Source of the DNA: Sneathiellales bacterium
GTDB taxonomy: Bacteria > Pseudomonadota > Alphaproteobacteria > JANQFL01
NCBI GenBank assembly: GCA_028277845.1
Contig: JANQFL010000064.1
Span: 1 to 47,121 of the forward strand
Reading direction: 5' to 3'
DNA: 47,121 nucleotides
Numbering within the stretch: the first letter of the stretch is position 1; every line of letters starts with the position of its first letter. Made by a program: the position numbers and the translations under genes. Positions 27,300 to 47,014 of the stretch are shown piece after piece. The notes under the pieces were generated by a model. It was not told the DNA's origin, ran no database searches, and saw nothing but the letters and a program-made list of their open reading frames with translations.

Positions 27300-27560
27300 T
27301 GGAATTGGCGAGGGATACTTGTCTCAATGTATAAAATATAACTTAACGATATTTCGCAATAAAATACATGCATAAATTCATTTAACAACTATACGTAGAT
27401 GAATTAATTAACAAAAACTAAATCAAATTATTGAATTGAATTGATTTCTTTAGCATAATTCCAGCTTATTACTACTTTTTCACTATATCTATACTTTTTA
27501 CACGTATTTGAAATCCTAATATTGATTATTTATTACAATTACATGACATTTCGCACTGTC
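27300..27560. other. AT-rich, gene-free regulatory stretch
   Basis: The 387-bp gap between the divergent binding-protein gene (27279) and PaaK-like gene (27667) contains no plausible ORF. Bases 27300-27560 are strikingly AT-rich against a GC-rich background, with many short A/T runs and TpA steps. It holds the two divergent promoters and could bind a nucleoid protein of the MucR/Ros or H-NS-like type. I looked for a Pho box in front of the PstS-like gene; only an isolated CTGTCAC half-like sequence near 27559 is present, so PhoB control is not supported. Confidence 0.6.
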
Positions 27561-27666
27561 TGTCACTTTTTTGTGGAGATACCGCTCCATCGAACCGCAA
27601 AGCCATGACAATTAACCGAATGTTTTTATGCGCCCGGCTTGATAGGGTCTCATCGAACCAAGACTT

Positions 27667-29103
27667 GTGAATCTGGCGGACGCCGGTCATTCACATCATC
27701 TCCGAGGGTTTCCACCGTTGTTAGTCAACTCCAGCATCGAAGGCGTTGCGTGGCCGGGAATACCGGAACAATTCGGCGCCTCGCTTGGCGCCGTTCTCTT
27801 CCAGATGGAGCGCTCGCAGTACTATTCGCCGGAAAAACTGTTCGACCACCAGCGGCATCAACTACGGGCGTTGTTTCTGCACGCGCAAAAACAAACGACG
27901 TTTTACCGGCAACGCTTCGAGGAATGCGGTTTCGACCCGCTGGGTGACATCACGCCGGAAACAATAGGCAGACTGCCGCCATTGACGCGCGACCAGTTTC
28001 AGGCCGGTGGCGAGACGACCGCCGCGGCGAGCTACCCCAAGGCGCACGGCAAGCGTAATCAGATTCGCACGTCGGGCACGACCGGCCGACCGGTCACCCT
28101 GTACAAGACACCGCTCATGCAGTTGTTCTGGAATGCCTGCGCCCTGCGCGGATACTACTGGCATGGGCGCGACGTCAGGGGCAAACTTGCGGTGATCCGC
28201 TATGTGGAGAAGCCGAAAGCCATGGCGCCGCACGGCGTGCGGTCCGAAGCATGGGGCGCCGAAGTCCGTTCATGGTTTCCGGAGTCCGGTCCGGCAGTCG
28301 CACTCAACATCGCCAGTAAACTCGCCGATCAAGCGGATTGGCTCATCCGGGAAAACCCGGACTACATATTGTCCTACCCGTCCAATTTCATGGCACTCTC
28401 GGAGTATTTCCAAACGCATGGCCTGTCATTGCCAAACCTGCGCGGCGTCAGCACCATGAGCGAAGTGGTGTCTCCGCAAATGCGTGCCGCCGTCAAGAAA
28501 GCGTGGGGTGTCGGTACGACCGATGTCTATACGTGCGAGGAAACGGGCTATCTGGCCACCCAGTGCCCCGACCACGAGCATTATCACGTGCAGTCGGAAA
28601 ACGCCTATGTCGAGATCGTCGACGACGAGGGCAATCCATGCCCGCCGGGACAGGTGGGCCGGGTGCTGTTCACCAGCCTGCATAACTTCGCCACGCCCTT
28701 GATACGGTACGAGGTGGGTGATTTTGCCGAATGGGGTGAGCCCTGTTCGTGTGGCCGCGGCCTACCGGTGATCAAGCGGATTCACGGCCGTTTCCGCAAC
28801 CGCATGATCCTTCCCGATGGCCGATCCGAATTTCCTTATCTGGGGGAATACGAGGATTTCGAGGAAATCGGCGCGGACATCAAGCAGTTCCAGTACGTCC
28901 AACACAGTGTGAACGATGTCGAGGTCAAACTGGTGGTTCCCGAGCCGTTGACCGCCGAACAGGAGAACACTGCCAAGAAGGTCATTGTTCGCGCACTCGG
29001 ACACCCGTTCAATGTGACGCTGAGTTATCACGATGAAATCCCGCGGAGCGCCAGCGGAAAATTCGAGGAATTTGTCTGTATGGTAAACAAACCTTCGGGA
29101 TAG
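27667..29103 (+). CDS. PaaK/CapK-type adenylate-forming enzyme
   Basis: The 478-residue protein belongs to the phenylacetate-CoA ligase/CapK branch of the ANL superfamily, enzymes that activate a carboxylate as acyl-AMP. The ATP loop is 'IRTSGTTGRPVTLYKT' (about 140), and 'YTCEETGYLATQCPDHEHYHVQSENAYVEIVDD' corresponds to the A5 region. 'TPLIRYEVGDFAEWGEPCSCGRGLPVI' is the A7 region, with Cys residues found in many CapK proteins, and the C-terminal 'IPRSASGKFEEFV' supplies the A10 lysine. Whether CoA or another nucleophile accepts the acyl group is unknown. The start is GTG at 27667 without a clear ribosome-binding site; the N-terminal 'GVAWPGIPEQFGASLGAVLFQMERSQYYSPE' matches the usual family start. 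It is followed 74 nt later by an acyltransferase-like gene. Confidence 0.85.
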   Translation: MNLADAGHSHHLRGFPPLLVNSSIEGVAWPGIPEQFGASLGAVLFQMERSQYYSPEKLFDHQRHQLRALFLHAQKQTTFYRQRFEECGFDPLGDITPETIGRLPPLTRDQFQAGGETTAAASYPKAHGKRNQIRTSGTTGRPVTLYKTPLMQLFWNACALRGYYWHGRDVRGKLAVIRYVEKPKAMAPHGVRSEAWGAEVRSWFPESGPAVALNIASKLADQADWLIRENPDYILSYPSNFMALSEYFQTHGLSLPNLRGVSTMSEVVSPQMRAAVKKAWGVGTTDVYTCEETGYLATQCPDHEHYHVQSENAYVEIVDDEGNPCPPGQVGRVLFTSLHNFATPLIRYEVGDFAEWGEPCSCGRGLPVIKRIHGRFRNRMILPDGRSEFPYLGEYEDFEEIGADIKQFQYVQHSVNDVEVKLVVPEPLTAEQENTAKKVIVRALGHPFNVTLSYHDEIPRSASGKFEEFVCMVNKPSG

Positions 29104-29177
29104 GCCGTTTTGTAAACGCTTCCTTCGTGTCTTCCGGTTAGGAATTTGGATGATTTCCGCACTTGGGACCCGACAAA

Positions 29178-29906
29178 ATGTCTGAACTGGATTACTCAAT
29201 CGAAAACGTCGACGGACTGGCTGACACGCTCGTCAGCGAAATGTTCGCGCTGTATGCCCGCTACTTCGACGGCACGAGCGAACAACTCTTCCGCAGCGAC
29301 CTTTCCGAAAAACAGTTTGTCATCATCCTCCGTGACGAAAACGGAACCGTGCAGGGCTTCTCGACCGCGATGGTCAACGACCATGACATGAACGGCGCCC
29401 GCCTGCGGTCGTTCTATTCCGGCGATACCATCGTCGATCAACAGTACTGGGGTCAGCACTCGCTGGTGACCGCGTGGTTCCAACTGGCGGGGCACGTAAA
29501 AGCACAGGAACCGGACACGCCGCTTTACTGGTTCCTCCTGGTCAAGGGTCACCGCACCTACCGGTATCTGTATGCCTTCTTCAACGAGTTCTATCCGGCC
29601 CATGACAGGGAGACGACCGCGGACGCCAAGGCCATCATGGATATGCTCGCCGGCGGTCGCTACGGCGACGACTATGATCCCGATCGCGGCATCATTCACT
29701 TCCCCACCTCCCATGGACATCTCAAGTCCAGTTTCGCCGACATTCCAGAAAAGGACCGCGAACGGCCGGATGTACGGTATTTCCTCGAACGCAATCCCGG
29801 CTATGTGAACGGCGACGAACTCGTATGCCTGGCTGAGTTGCGGACGGACAATATCCGACCCATCGGTGAGCGCCTGTTTCAGAAGGGCATGGAAAACGGC
29901 ACGTAA
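29178..29906 (+). CDS. Putative GNAT-like N-acyltransferase, uncharacterised
   Basis: This 242-residue soluble protein is not a recognised family member. Its N-terminal half has an alternating pattern like a GNAT fold (helix 'LVSEMFALYARYF', strand 'FVIILRDENGTVQGFSTAMV', strand 'ARLRSFYSGDTIVDQQYWGQHSLVTAWFQ', strand 'PLYWFLLVKGHRTYRYLYAFF'). This order fits beta2-beta4 and the acyl-CoA groove, but the canonical Q/RxxGxG/A loop is not clear. A C-terminal region of about 100 residues rich in Asp, Arg and Tyr is unusual. ATG at 29178 follows GGGACC; an upstream TTG at 29163 is possible. Location behind the PaaK-like gene suggests it takes an activated acyl group from that enzyme's product. Confidence 0.6.
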   Translation: MSELDYSIENVDGLADTLVSEMFALYARYFDGTSEQLFRSDLSEKQFVIILRDENGTVQGFSTAMVNDHDMNGARLRSFYSGDTIVDQQYWGQHSLVTAWFQLAGHVKAQEPDTPLYWFLLVKGHRTYRYLYAFFNEFYPAHDRETTADAKAIMDMLAGGRYGDDYDPDRGIIHFPTSHGHLKSSFADIPEKDRERPDVRYFLERNPGYVNGDELVCLAELRTDNIRPIGERLFQKGMENGT

Positions 29907-41067: not shown

Positions 41068-44000
41068 TCAGGAATCGAGCGCATCCCGAACGGCTTTGGC
41101 CAGGCTTTGTTTCTGGAACGGTTTGCTCAACACGACGGCATCGGGCCAGGCGGCAAAGTGCGGCTCGACGGCATCGGCGGTATATCCGGACATGAAGATC
41201 ACTTCCGAAGCAGGATCGCGGGCGCGAACCTCCTCGGCGAACTCCGGTCCACTCGTACCGCCCGGCAGAATGACATCGGACAGGATCAGATCGATCTTGG
41301 GATTTTGTTTCAAAAAGTCCCGTGCTTCGGCGGCGTCGGCGACATCGACAACGTTGTAGCCCAAACCCGTCAGCATATTGATGGCCAGTATCCGCACATC
41401 ATTGTTGTCCTCGATGACCAGGATGGTTTCGCCCTTGCCACAGGGTATGTTGCCGGTCTCCTTGTCCGCTTCGGACATATTCCGGTCCTGCGCCCTGGGC
41501 ATATACAGCGTCACCGTCGTTCCCGCGCCCTCCGCGCTTTCGATGACGGCGTACCCGTTGGACTGTTTGACGAAGCCATAAACCATGGACAGTCCGAGCC
41601 CGCTCCCATGACCGACCTCCTTCGTCGTGAAAAACGGAGAGAACGCCTGGTCGCGGACATCGGCCGGCATGCCGATCCCGGTATCGTGGACGGCCAGAGC
41701 CACGAAACTCCCCGAAACGGCAGTGGACTCGCCCGGCAGCGCCGTCTTGTCGAAGCGGACGTTTTCGCAGGAGATCCGGAGCGTTCCGCCCGCGGGCATG
41801 GCATCGCGGGCATTGATGGACAGATTGAGAAGGGCGTTTTCGAGCTGTCCGGCGTCCGCCCAAATGTTCCAGAGATCTCCGTCGATCGAAATATCGAGAT
41901 CGATGGTCTCGCCGAGAGACCGTTCCAGCAGATCGGACATGCCTTGCACGAGTTCGCCGGTATGGACGGTCCGCGGGTGCAGTTCCTGCTGCCGGGAAAA
42001 GGCCAGAAGGCGTTGCGTGAGTTCGGCGCCACGATGACTGGAGCGGATAATCGGTTGAATGAGATGCTCCGTCTCCGCGGTCTGAAAGTCCGCGAGCAAC
42101 TCGGCATTGCCCCTGATAATGGCGAGCAGGTTGTTGAAATCGTGCGCGATCCCGCCGGTCAACTGGCCCACGGCTTCCATTTTCTGTGCCTGTGTCAGTT
42201 GCGCTTCCAACTCCTTGCGCGCCGTAACGTCCCGGACGGCGGCCGCGATCATCACACCGTCATCCGTTTCAACGGGTGCCAAATCAATTTCCACCGGGAA
42301 CGTGCTGCCGTCCTTGCGCTGTCCGTACAGGTCCCGCCGATCGGTTGCGAGGCGGCGGCGGTTCGGGGAACGCGAGAACACCGCCCGCATGTGAATATGG
42401 TCCTTGCGCTTATCGAACGGCACCAGCATTTCGATCGGCTCGCCGACCATTTCGGCGCGCGACCAGCCGAAAATGGTTTCCGCCTGCCGGTTGGCCAACG
42501 TCATGCGTCCGGAACCGTCGACCAGCAAAATGGCTTCGGGGGCGAATTCGAACAAATCGCTGTATTGGCGCCTGTTGTGCTCACGCGACATGGCCGCGGC
42601 CACTGCAACGGCGAACATCTTCAACACCGTTTCCTCGGGTGAACGCGTATACAGAGGCGAGCGATTCATGACACCGAGATATCCAAGCGTCTGTCCGGCA
42701 TGGTCGATCAGCGGCACGGCGGCGAACGAATCGACGCCGTTGTCCCGCACGTAGGAATCATCCGGATAGCGCTCGCCCATGCCCCGTTCGATGCAAACGA
42801 GCTTACCGTCGTCGGCATGACAGATCTCGGCCCAGGGCGTGCCCGCGATATCAAAACTCCGATTGGTATGGAGCGATCCGTCCTCGAACAGCGCCAGCAT
42901 CTGGATTCGCCCGGTATTCTGAAGTTCCGGCCGGCAGACAAAGGCGATATCGGTCTTCAGCAGGCGGCTCAGCGACAACACCGCGGCGCGCCAGTAATTC
43001 GGTCCTTCCAGCGCGATCAAGTCGGAGGACAAGGTCTGCATGGCAGACTCGATCAGTTTCCGGTCTGTGATGTCGATGCCGAACCCGCCGATACCCGACA
43101 CCGTTCCCGCGGAATCAAAAACCGGAAATTTGACGAAATGCAGCAACCGGTCACCGAATGCCGGCAGGCGCATCGGTAAATCCTGTTCGATCGGCTGACC
43201 GGTGCGCCGGACCTGTTCGTCCAACGCATCGAGTTGTCTTGCCGTTTCCGCGTCATAGAGCTCGGAAGACGTCTTGCCGATAACCGTGTCGGCCGTCGTC
43301 TGGAACATCTGCTCATACATCTTGTTGACAAGCTGCGTCCGGCCTTCGGCATCCTTCAGTACCAGCCCGGCGGGAGAATACCGGAATACGGAACGGAAAC
43401 GCTCCTCGCTCCCGATCAGATCCCGCTCCACCTGCTTTCGTTTTGTAATGTCGCGGGCAAAACAGCACACGATCCCCCGCTCGCCGTGATCCAGTTGCGC
43501 CATCGTGACTTCGACCGGCACTTCGTGGCCCGTTCGGGTCCTGTAGATCGTTTCGAACGTTCTGGCATGAAAACTGCTGGCGGCGGATTTCAGTAGCCGC
43601 AGCCATTCATCCTGACCCGCGCCTTTGTCGACATCCCAAATCCGTTTCTCCAGAACCTCGGATTCGCCGTACTCCAGTAACCGAGCGCAGGATTCGTTGG
43701 CGTACTTGATTCGTCCGCTTTGACACACGAGCAGCACGGCATCGCCGGCGTGGTCGAGCGTCCGCTGCATCAGATGCAGGCGGTCTTCGGTGCCCTTCCG
43801 GTCCGAGATATCCTCGATGACGGAAACGAAATAGTGCGGCTCCCCCGTTTCATGCCTGACGAGCGCAACCGTCAAATGCGCCCAGACAGTCGTTCCATCC
43901 TTGCGAACGTAGCGCTTTTCACGGAGATACGTGTCCACCTCTCCGGCCAACAAGCGTCTCAGATATGTCGTATCCTGGCCGAGATCATCAGGGTGGGTGA

Positions 44001-45315
44001 TGTCCTGGAACGTCATCCTCAGGAGTTCGTCACGGGAATAGCCGAGAATATCGAGAAGACGTTGATTGACCCTCAGCCAACCGCCGTCCGTTCCGACATG
44101 GGCAATTCCGACAGCGGCCTGTTCGAAGGCATGGCGGAAACGCTCTTCACTGTCTGCCAACTCCTTTGTCCTGGTCGCGACCTGGCGACGCAACGTCCAG
44201 CTCCACGCCAGAATACCGGCAATGAACAATACAAGTAGCGAACTCGCCCCAATGAGCGCCTTGACCCAGTGTTCTCGCTGTTTCCGCCGGGCTTGCACCG
44301 GGTCGAAAACCGCGTCGGCTTGGACAAAATCACCATGTACCAAGCCGGCGTGCTTCAGGTCACGGTGCATGCGGGCCAAGCGCCGTGGATTGATCTGCCC
44401 GACCGGAACGACCGGATACATCATCAGCCGTTCGACTTCCGTCGCCTGGAACCGGTTGAAGGCAACGGCATCCTCGACAGTGAACGTGCGCGGCAGTTCG
44501 GTCGCAATACGCAGGGCAATTTCGTCAGCGTGCTGAAGAGCGTATTCCCACCCCCGTATACTGGCCGTCACAAATCGCTCCACCAGATCGGGGTCCGTAT
44601 CCACGAGCCCGGCATGCGTGAAGAGCGAATCACCATAAAAATCGATACCGTACGTTGCCGGCCGCAATATGCTGAGAGTCATTCCCAATTGCCTGGCGCG
44701 CCACAAAGCCGTCAACGTGTATCCGGTATAGGCATCCAACTCGCCATTTTGCAGCAAGTCGATGCTTCGGCCCTGCCAGTTCGGAGACAGCGCGGGCGCC
44801 ACCTGTTGCGAATCGATGCCTTCGGCATCCAGCATGGCGACCAGTTCCGCATCCGTCAGGTCGCCAAGGACACGGCCGACACGAAGCCGGGTCAGGTCCG
44901 CGGGAGACCGCACGTTCAATTCGCTGCGGGCAAAAACCGCGACCGGACTTTGCTGCATGACGGCGGCGACGAATACCAGCGGGGACCCCGCGTCACGTGC
45001 GACCAGCACATCCGCTGCACCAATTCCGAATTCCGCCCGGCCCTCGGCGACCTCCTTGGTTGCATTCAGGATATGCCGGTCGGGTGTCACCGCCGTCCGG
45101 ATTTCAACGTCCAGACCTGCCTCGGCATAGAAACCATGCCATAAGGCGGCATAATAACCGGCGAACTGGAATTGGGGTTCCCATCGCAACTGCAACACGA
45201 CCTTGTCGGCTCCGTAGGACGGAAACGCCAAGCTCAAACCGGTCATGAGAACAATGGAAGGCAGGCCGCAAAAAGATCTGAGGAACCGCAGAAAACCCGT
45301 GATGCGTGTCCACAT
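41068..45315 (-). CDS. Hybrid sensor histidine kinase with NMT1/THI5-like periplasmic sensor
   Basis: This predicted 1415-residue protein (1430 if an upstream TTG at 45360 is used) is one of the largest here. Domain order: signal/membrane anchor (about 1-35), NMT1/THI5-like periplasmic binding domain ('LQLRWEPQFQFAGYYAALWHGFYAEAGLDVEI', about 40-340), membrane helix (about 355-375), three PAS domains (about 385-760), a GAF-like domain (about 770-915), a fourth PAS (about 920-1035), HisKA with H1058 in 'GGIAHDFNNLLA', HATPase ('NALLNLSINARDAM', 'DTGIGM', 'GSGLGLSMV') and a C-terminal receiver with D1347. ATG at 45315 follows GGGG and gives a standard signal peptide. The NMT1 fold suggests a thiamine-precursor, pyrimidine or sulfonate-like ligand. 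Output would pass to an unlinked phosphotransfer protein, since no DNA-binding partner is adjacent. Confidence 0.9.
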   Translation of the reverse strand: MWTRITGFLRFLRSFCGLPSIVLMTGLSLAFPSYGADKVVLQLRWEPQFQFAGYYAALWHGFYAEAGLDVEIRTAVTPDRHILNATKEVAEGRAEFGIGAADVLVARDAGSPLVFVAAVMQQSPVAVFARSELNVRSPADLTRLRVGRVLGDLTDAELVAMLDAEGIDSQQVAPALSPNWQGRSIDLLQNGELDAYTGYTLTALWRARQLGMTLSILRPATYGIDFYGDSLFTHAGLVDTDPDLVERFVTASIRGWEYALQHADEIALRIATELPRTFTVEDAVAFNRFQATEVERLMMYPVVPVGQINPRRLARMHRDLKHAGLVHGDFVQADAVFDPVQARRKQREHWVKALIGASSLLVLFIAGILAWSWTLRRQVATRTKELADSEERFRHAFEQAAVGIAHVGTDGGWLRVNQRLLDILGYSRDELLRMTFQDITHPDDLGQDTTYLRRLLAGEVDTYLREKRYVRKDGTTVWAHLTVALVRHETGEPHYFVSVIEDISDRKGTEDRLHLMQRTLDHAGDAVLLVCQSGRIKYANESCARLLEYGESEVLEKRIWDVDKGAGQDEWLRLLKSAASSFHARTFETIYRTRTGHEVPVEVTMAQLDHGERGIVCCFARDITKRKQVERDLIGSEERFRSVFRYSPAGLVLKDAEGRTQLVNKMYEQMFQTTADTVIGKTSSELYDAETARQLDALDEQVRRTGQPIEQDLPMRLPAFGDRLLHFVKFPVFDSAGTVSGIGGFGIDITDRKLIESAMQTLSSDLIALEGPNYWRAAVLSLSRLLKTDIAFVCRPELQNTGRIQMLALFEDGSLHTNRSFDIAGTPWAEICHADDGKLVCIERGMGERYPDDSYVRDNGVDSFAAVPLIDHAGQTLGYLGVMNRSPLYTRSPEETVLKMFAVAVAAAMSREHNRRQYSDLFEFAPEAILLVDGSGRMTLANRQAETIFGWSRAEMVGEPIEMLVPFDKRKDHIHMRAVFSRSPNRRRLATDRRDLYGQRKDGSTFPVEIDLAPVETDDGVMIAAAVRDVTARKELEAQLTQAQKMEAVGQLTGGIAHDFNNLLAIIRGNAELLADFQTAETEHLIQPIIRSSHRGAELTQRLLAFSRQQELHPRTVHTGELVQGMSDLLERSLGETIDLDISIDGDLWNIWADAGQLENALLNLSINARDAMPAGGTLRISCENVRFDKTALPGESTAVSGSFVALAVHDTGIGMPADVRDQAFSPFFTTKEVGHGSGLGLSMVYGFVKQSNGYAVIESAEGAGTTVTLYMPRAQDRNMSEADKETGNIPCGKGETILVIEDNNDVRILAINMLTGLGYNVVDVADAAEARDFLKQNPKIDLILSDVILPGGTSGPEFAEEVRARDPASEVIFMSGYTADAVEPHFAAWPDAVVLSKPFQKQSLAKAVRDALDS

Positions 45316-45380
45316 CAAACCCCGACTATCGCTCGATGATTCTATCGCCACCGTGCCCAATCCCTTGTTACATACAGTAT

Positions 45381-45535: not shown

Positions 45536-47014
45536 ATGAGTCGCCGCCCCAATATTCTGATGTTCATGACCGATAATCAGCCGGCGGAACTGCTGGGGTG
45601 TTACGGCAACGACGAAATCTTCACGCCGCACATCGATGCACTGGCAACTCAAGGCTTGCGTTTCGATAACGCGTTTTGCGTCAACGGCATGTGTTCGCCG
45701 TGCCGGGCTTCCGTCATGACCGGGCTGATGCCGTCCCAGCACGGCATTCACACCTGGATCGACGACCGCTTGCGAGATCGCTGGCCGGAGGGCTGGAACG
45801 CCATCGCGGAATTCAAAACCCTGCCGGAAATTCTACTCGACCACGGCTACAACACCGCACTGATCGGCAAGTACCACATGGGGGCGCCTGAGCAGGCCCA
45901 GAACGGGTTCCAGCACTGGGTGACCAATCCGCACGGCCATGTCACCGATTTCTGGGACGGCGTCTACATCGAGAACGGCGTGACCCGGCGCTACGCCGGT
46001 CATAGCGTCGACTATTTCACCGACAAAACCGTTCAGTATCTCGAAGCGGCGGCGAGTTCGGATGCACCGTTTTTCGCCTTCGTGCCCTACAACGCGCCGT
46101 ACGGCCACTGGCCGGCGCTCAAGGGACGCGCGAAAAACCGTTTCCGCGCCCGTTACGACGATGTGCCCATGCACTCCGTGCCGCGCGAGGGCCTGCACGA
46201 AAACGCCATTCGAAGATTCCTGAAAAAGGTGTCCGACAGCTATGGCGGTGTCGATCACTCCTCTGAACTGCGCATCCCCAACGACCTGGAAACATTGCGC
46301 AACTACTATTCCGAGATGACCATGGTGGACGACGGCGTCGGCCGTGTGCTCGCCGCCCTCGAACGCCTCGGTCTGACGGACGATACACTCGTGGTCTACA
46401 CCGCCGACCATGGCTTCTCGCTGGGCCATCACGGCATTTGGGGCCACAGCCAGGCCACCCTCCCCTCCAATGCGTACCGGGCGACTTTTTCGATCCCTCT
46501 CATTTTTCGCCATGGCGGCAATCTGGTGACGGGGGTCAATACCGAACTGGTCAGCCAGATCGACCTGCTCCCCACCCTGCTGGAACTGGCCGGTATCGAG
46601 CCCGACGGCCACAACGGCAATGCCCCTGCCCGAAGCATGGCGCCGGCCTTGCGCGGCCAAGAACACGACTGGTCCGGCGCCGTCTATCTGGAACAGGAAG
46701 AGACCCGGGCCGTACGTACCGGCCGCTGGCTCTACAAGCGCCGCTTCCAGGGTGCACCGGCGGCGCCCTACCCGGACGAGATGTACGACCTGGAGTCCGA
46801 TCCGCTGGAGAGGACCGACCTGGCCGGTGACCCGGCTTACGCCGATACAGCCCATGAGCTGATCGCGCAGATCGACGGCTTCTTCACCCGCTACGCCGAC
46901 CCGCGCTACGACCTGTGGCACGGCGGCAGGCCGCAATCGAATTCCGACAAGCCGTGGCTGTGGAAGGAAGCCTGGGGTGAAGAGTGGGAAGCGGGTTTTC
47001 AGGGCAACCGATAA
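45536..47014 (+). CDS. Sulfatase-family (type I, formylglycine) hydrolase
   Basis: The 492-residue protein has the type I sulfatase fold. Metal ligands D13 and N14 are in 'FMTDNQPAELLGCYG', and the formylglycine site is C53 in 'CSPCRASVMTG', matching C-x-P-x-R. Further conserved residues are in 'LIGKYHMG' and 'YTADHGFSLGHHGIWGHSQ'. No signal peptide is seen, so it acts in the cytosol, as choline-sulfatase-like and some phosphonate/sulfate ester enzymes do. The Cys form is matured by a formylglycine-generating enzyme, none of which is in the window. ATG at 45536 has only a weak GCGAAG upstream. It stands alone beside the right boundary repeat. Confidence 0.92.
   Translation: MSRRPNILMFMTDNQPAELLGCYGNDEIFTPHIDALATQGLRFDNAFCVNGMCSPCRASVMTGLMPSQHGIHTWIDDRLRDRWPEGWNAIAEFKTLPEILLDHGYNTALIGKYHMGAPEQAQNGFQHWVTNPHGHVTDFWDGVYIENGVTRRYAGHSVDYFTDKTVQYLEAAASSDAPFFAFVPYNAPYGHWPALKGRAKNRFRARYDDVPMHSVPREGLHENAIRRFLKKVSDSYGGVDHSSELRIPNDLETLRNYYSEMTMVDDGVGRVLAALERLGLTDDTLVVYTADHGFSLGHHGIWGHSQATLPSNAYRATFSIPLIFRHGGNLVTGVNTELVSQIDLLPTLLELAGIEPDGHNGNAPARSMAPALRGQEHDWSGAVYLEQEETRAVRTGRWLYKRRFQGAPAAPYPDEMYDLESDPLERTDLAGDPAYADTAHELIAQIDGFFTRYADPRYDLWHGGRPQSNSDKPWLWKEAWGEEWEAGFQGNR

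Follow-up and report, generated by a model that had tools for sequence, protein, structure and literature searches.

A PaaK-like adenylate-forming ligase and a GNAT-fold protein of an unnamed family encoded as a pair: a candidate two-gene acylation module in a Sneathiellales bacterium

Two adjacent genes of a Sneathiellales bacterium encode a PaaK/CapK-like adenylate-forming ligase and a protein with the fold of the GNAT acyltransferases, and we consider it fairly probable that they constitute a two-gene acylation module in which the ligase activates an acid and the GNAT-fold protein moves the acyl group. As relatives of the GNAT-fold protein adjoin acid-activating enzymes across many bacteria, the product of the pair is probably a small molecule or lipid carrying an acyl group. 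The genes lie in a stretch of 47,121 nucleotides (contig JANQFL010000064.1 of assembly GCA_028277845.1), here called the window. A preliminary description of this DNA had proposed an undescribed system. At the family level this holds, as no Pfam or NCBIfam model matches the GNAT-fold protein and a literature search found no description of the ligase-GNAT pair, but the combination of an adenylate-forming enzyme and an acyltransferase is a known one.

Both open frames are present on the forward strand, as had been described. The ligase gene (27667-29103, +), assigned from Pfam, NCBIfam and structure matches and from its motifs, encodes 478 amino acids when read from a GTG codon, while a TTG at 27718 would give 461. 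The homologues at loci L014 and L108 begin at the residue corresponding to residue 18 of the window ligase, that is at this TTG, and a GAGGG sequence is found at 27704-27708, nine bases upstream of it. For these reasons the TTG is the likelier start, and 461 amino acids the likelier length. The two genes are separated by 74 bp (29104-29177), compared to 17-26 bp at L012, L013, and L014. The GNAT-fold gene (29178-29906, +), assigned from an AlphaFold2 model, structure matches and conservation, encodes 242 amino acids from an ATG; begun at a TTG at 29163 it would encode 247. The absence of phenylacetate and polysaccharide genes noted earlier agrees with our results, since nothing belonging to a phenylacetate or capsule context was noticed among the neighbouring genes examined. 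Further along the window, 41068-45360 (-) encodes a large hybrid histidine kinase in which an NMT1/THI5-like sensor domain is combined with several PAS domains, and its gene is adjoined by a sulfatase gene at 45536-47014 (+).

The AT-rich stretch upstream of the ligase gene is real. It comprises 339 bases (27328-27666) with a G+C content of 30%, falling to 24% at 27388-27560. It is, however, non-coding and intergenic, and is probably a promoter region; it contains one sigma-70-like site (27431-27459), but shuffled sequence gives as many. The G+C contents of the ligase and GNAT-fold genes are 0.587 and 0.573, and their third-position values, 0.71 and 0.74, are near those of the neighbouring genes (0.73-0.85). 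The locus was searched for marks of a genomic island, and this explanation was rejected as no tRNA, no Rfam match and no notable or convincing repeat was found there. The suggestion that the pair is an acquired specialised module has no support beyond the AT-rich stretch.

Judged by its sequence, the ligase belongs to the ANL superfamily of adenylate-forming enzymes. It matches the Pfam AMP-binding model PF00501 (1.3e-7, 31.2 bits) just above the cut-off of 29.9. The adenylation motifs, which had been described as intact, are both present (TSGTTGRP, DVYTCEETG, LIRYEVGD, GR at 374-375, and Lys465) and conserved. Among 45 homologues the P-loop, A5, A7, A8, and the A10 lysine are all conserved; G137, G140, R347, Y348, D352, G374, and R375 are invariant, and Lys465 is kept in all 41 that reach that position. 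In NCBIfam the ligase comes closest to the DVU_1553 family AMP-dependent CoA ligases (NF045666), FlxY, and PaaK (TIGR02155), each scoring under its cut-off. With 136 bits against a cut-off of 300 for NF045666 and 56.7 bits against a curated cut-off of 646 for TIGR02155, the protein was assigned neither to the DVU_1553 family nor to the true phenylacetate-CoA ligases, and is best called PaaK-like. Solved PaaK-type ligases are its best matches in the structure database (1e-16 to 1e-20). An AlphaFold2 model of the ligase, built from four sequences, reached a pLDDT of 48.8 and was left unused.

The same genome contains 14 further places matching the ligase, nine of which are long enough for a tree, and some are found in tandem. 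Related PaaK-like ligases with about 40% identity are encoded on contigs C2, C17, C51, C94, and C119 of this genome (loci L094, L100, and L102-L104), three of them in tandem on C119 and two on C2. None of the other PaaK-like ligases of the genome is adjoined by a GNAT of the window family. Two ligase fragments, one N-terminal and one C-terminal, are found at contig ends (C108, 39899-40618, and C124, 36331-37041 of this same genome, G000), and these may be one gene cut by the assembly.

The second protein had been described as GNAT-like in its N-terminal half, with a C-terminal part that could not be placed. An AlphaFold2 model based on 42 aligned sequences has a pLDDT of 96.5 and a pTM of 0.92, and matches solved GNATs with Z scores of 11-13 over 138-168 residues, the matches together spanning residues 1-234. 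Among these are NatD (Z 13.0), GCN5 (12.6), and LasI (11.8). The order of the structural elements is that of GNATs, with the addition of a helical insertion at about residues 140-213 (codons 29595-29816, +), delimited from the secondary structure of the model and from the GNAT alignments, which follows GNAT helix 4 and precedes the final strand (214-220). The protein is thus predicted to be a GNAT throughout its length; the first part of the earlier description stands, while the seemingly unplaceable part is a helical insertion inside a complete GNAT fold.

The residues that are invariant in the family include D41, K45, G60, F61, S81-G82-D83-T84 (SGDT), W91-G92, W118, P140, L182, N206, and G212. 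The canonical acetyl-CoA loop following strand 4 in GNATs, Q/RxxGxG/A, is here replaced by W-G-x-Q, where G92 is invariant, position 89 is variable, and Gln occupies position 94 in 35 of the 42 sequences, Gly or Ala in none. The family was accordingly not placed among the canonical GNAT N-acetyltransferases, and this alteration of the loop makes its use of CoA uncertain. When it comes to the acyl-homoserine lactone (AHL) synthases, the fold would agree with them but does not single them out, and neither the protein nor any of its 41 relatives has a Pfam match to Autoind_synth (PF00765).

One scan of genome contigs using two peptide patterns found 248 relatives of the GNAT-fold protein, while a scan of viral sequences found none. 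Eighty loci from the scan were kept for a survey of gene neighbourhoods, and the clustering of open reading frames covered 88 sources, one of them the window. The kept loci belong to Proteobacteria, Cyanobacteria, and several other phyla. The commonest neighbour is a member of the GH3 family, found within 6.5 kb in 67 of the 88 sources and within 10.5 kb in 48 of the 54 loci with long flanks. It is encoded directly downstream of the GNAT relative in 34 of 87 cases, and in many clusters other genes separate the two. The usual, default partner of the family is thus GH3, itself an adenylate-forming enzyme. A protein of 371 amino acids is found in 57 of the 88 loci; the member tested has no Pfam or NCBIfam match, and it looks like a tandem GNAT, judging from a reading of its sequence and an 'N-acetyltransferase' label. 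Rieske oxygenases, fatty acid desaturases, B12-binding radical SAM proteins, and AurF-like proteins recur in the GH3-linked clusters, as would be expected of a biosynthetic pathway.

Some of these loci deserve separate mention. A GNAT relative, a GH3 protein, two to four B12-binding radical SAM proteins, and the 371-amino-acid protein are found together in unrelated phyla (L054, L061, L062, L068, L078, L080, L091, and similar loci), and no account of them turned up in a literature search on GH3 together with radical SAM or Rieske clusters. At L004 (5102-12781), from an Acinetobacter baumannii record, the GNAT relative and GH3 are found amid apparent HlyD/EmrA-, MFS-, and TolC-type export genes, as if the product were exported. 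Sulfotransferase homologues adjoin the GNAT relative at L012 and L013 (10767-11639, -, in both) and at L045 (4110-4991, +); the two settings differ, yet each has P450 genes close by. In Oscillatoriales and related Cyanobacteria (L019, L020, and L026-L028) the GNAT relatives have neither a GH3 nor a PaaK-like gene on the stretch retrieved.

A PaaK-like ligase gene directly upstream of the GNAT gene is found in the window, at L012, L013, and L014, and in genome G371 (locus L108), where the contig ends inside the GNAT gene. The pair thus stays adjacent in the relatives that carry the window's clade of ligases. Neither of the two findings named beforehand as refuting the preliminary description, a failure of the genes to co-occur in other genomes and an unrelated fold of the second protein, was obtained. 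These five cases represent four lineages, since L012 and L013 are closely related. In a quick ligase tree made without bootstraps, a single clade unites the five GNAT-linked ligases (SH-aLRT 100) and sets them apart from the nine relatives of the same genome and from 31 others. In a GNAT tree of the same kind, the four full-length PaaK-linked members likewise form one clade (SH-aLRT 96), situated inside a mostly GH3-linked family. Since the clades match in both trees, a single exchange of partner is the simplest account, and GH3 has probably been replaced once by the PaaK-like clade. The ligase family is nevertheless wider than the pair, as it occurs in 23 of 385 genomes sampled class-wide, while the GNAT family occurs in five. 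A P450 gene is found upstream of the pair at L012-L014, and G371 has an apparent nitrilase-family gene near it. P450 was considered as a core part of the system and rejected, as there is none near the window's pair and the only match in the genome is 34% identical and located on another contig. The window's pair has no tailoring gene beside it.

These observations suggest a reaction in two steps. In the first, the PaaK-like enzyme would adenylate a carboxylic acid using ATP, as expected from its family and intact motifs, and the activated acid would probably be loaded onto CoA. In the second, the fold, the operon, and the exchange of partners suggest that the GNAT-fold protein would pass the acyl group to an amine or hydroxyl group of a small molecule or lipid. 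The altered loop leaves the acyl donor between acyl-CoA and acyl-AMP. By analogy with the GH3 partners of the wider family, a product of the N-acyl amino acid or amino-lipid type may be expected (PMC12493201), and the acylated amine or signal proposed in the preliminary description is plausible. The altered acetyl-CoA loop, the cyanobacterial members without a nearby ligase, the lack of a tailoring gene next to the window's pair, and the ability of GH3 enzymes to form the amide on their own speak against such a module.

The two proteins might instead take part in one pathway but at separate steps, the ligase or GH3 making one acyl bond and the GNAT-fold protein adding a second acyl group from another donor. 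GH3 enzymes finish amide bonds without any transferase (PMC12493201), so the GNAT in GH3 clusters may perform another step, and many of these clusters contain the 371-amino-acid apparent tandem GNAT as a second one. That protein is, however, missing from the PaaK-linked cassettes and was not found in the genome of the window either, and a CoA ligase alone does not complete a product. For the pair this arrangement seems to us not very likely.

It is doubtful that the GNAT-fold protein regulates the ligase, shutting off its activity by acetylation or binding. In the AcuA-AcsA pair, too, a GNAT has an adenylate-forming enzyme as its target (PMC11255334), the ligase retains a lysine of the target type (Lys465), and regulation would explain why the GNAT follows either a GH3 or a PaaK-like partner. 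It fits poorly with the non-canonical loop, with the genes lying between GNAT and GH3 in many clusters, with the cyanobacterial members, and with the related ligases of the same genome that have no such GNAT beside them. A variant of the acylation module, in which the family would take the acyl group directly from the adenylate-forming enzyme, either in the form of acyl-AMP or passed on inside a complex, and without CoA, would account for the altered loop, for the insertion as a docking element, and for the exchange of GH3 for a PaaK-like enzyme; we regard it as unlikely. That the ligase serves as a CoA ligase in the catabolism of an aromatic or fatty acid, with an incidental GNAT neighbour, as the many related ligases away from family GNATs, some in tandem, and the acyl-CoA dehydrogenase and enoyl-CoA hydratase genes 4-6 kb off on the opposite strand might suggest, is very improbable given the adjacency kept in four lineages and the matching clades in the two trees, on which an incidental neighbourhood was rejected.

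The acylation module is thus the reading we prefer. A widespread protein family lacking a database model has been delimited, and its conserved partner gives it a likely role. GH3-containing clusters, the products of which were not found in the literature searched, have been flagged in Pseudomonas, Burkholderia, Acinetobacter, Cyanobacteria, and others. Since the window contains the smallest version, with two genes, this is also the one most easily tested.

Among known systems, the bacterial GH3 enzyme OlsH of Singulisphaera acidiphila uses ATP to join a fatty acid to ornithine, forming N-acyl ornithine, and OlsH and OlsI perform separate acylation steps in ornithine lipid synthesis (PMC12493201). 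The resemblance is that an adenylate-forming enzyme is encoded near an acyltransferase and that GH3 is the usual partner of the GNAT family; one GNAT-linked GH3 matches the OlsH model weakly (1.6e-14, 53 bits against a curated cut-off of 620). OlsI, however, is an alpha/beta-hydrolase while the window protein is a GNAT, and there is no GH3 in the window or its genome, which is 98% complete and has no match to PF03321; the pair was therefore not classified as an OlsH-type amino-lipid system. AcuA of Bacillus subtilis is a GNAT enzyme that acts on an adenylate-forming enzyme, modifying the acetyl-CoA synthetase AcsA with acetyl-CoA (PMC11255334), whereas the window family lacks the canonical loop and is found in biosynthetic-looking clusters. 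The ligase shares superfamily and motifs with PaaK and PaaK-like ligases, and solved PaaK-type enzymes match it best, but its score of about 57 bits is far from the cut-off for PaaK itself and no phenylacetate pathway genes were noticed nearby. With AHL synthases such as LasI and with GNAT acyltransferases, the second protein has the overall fold in common, and it differs in having about 10-15% identity, no sequence-family match, and an extra helical insertion. AHL synthases have an altered pyrophosphate loop, and the window protein likewise departs from the canonical one.
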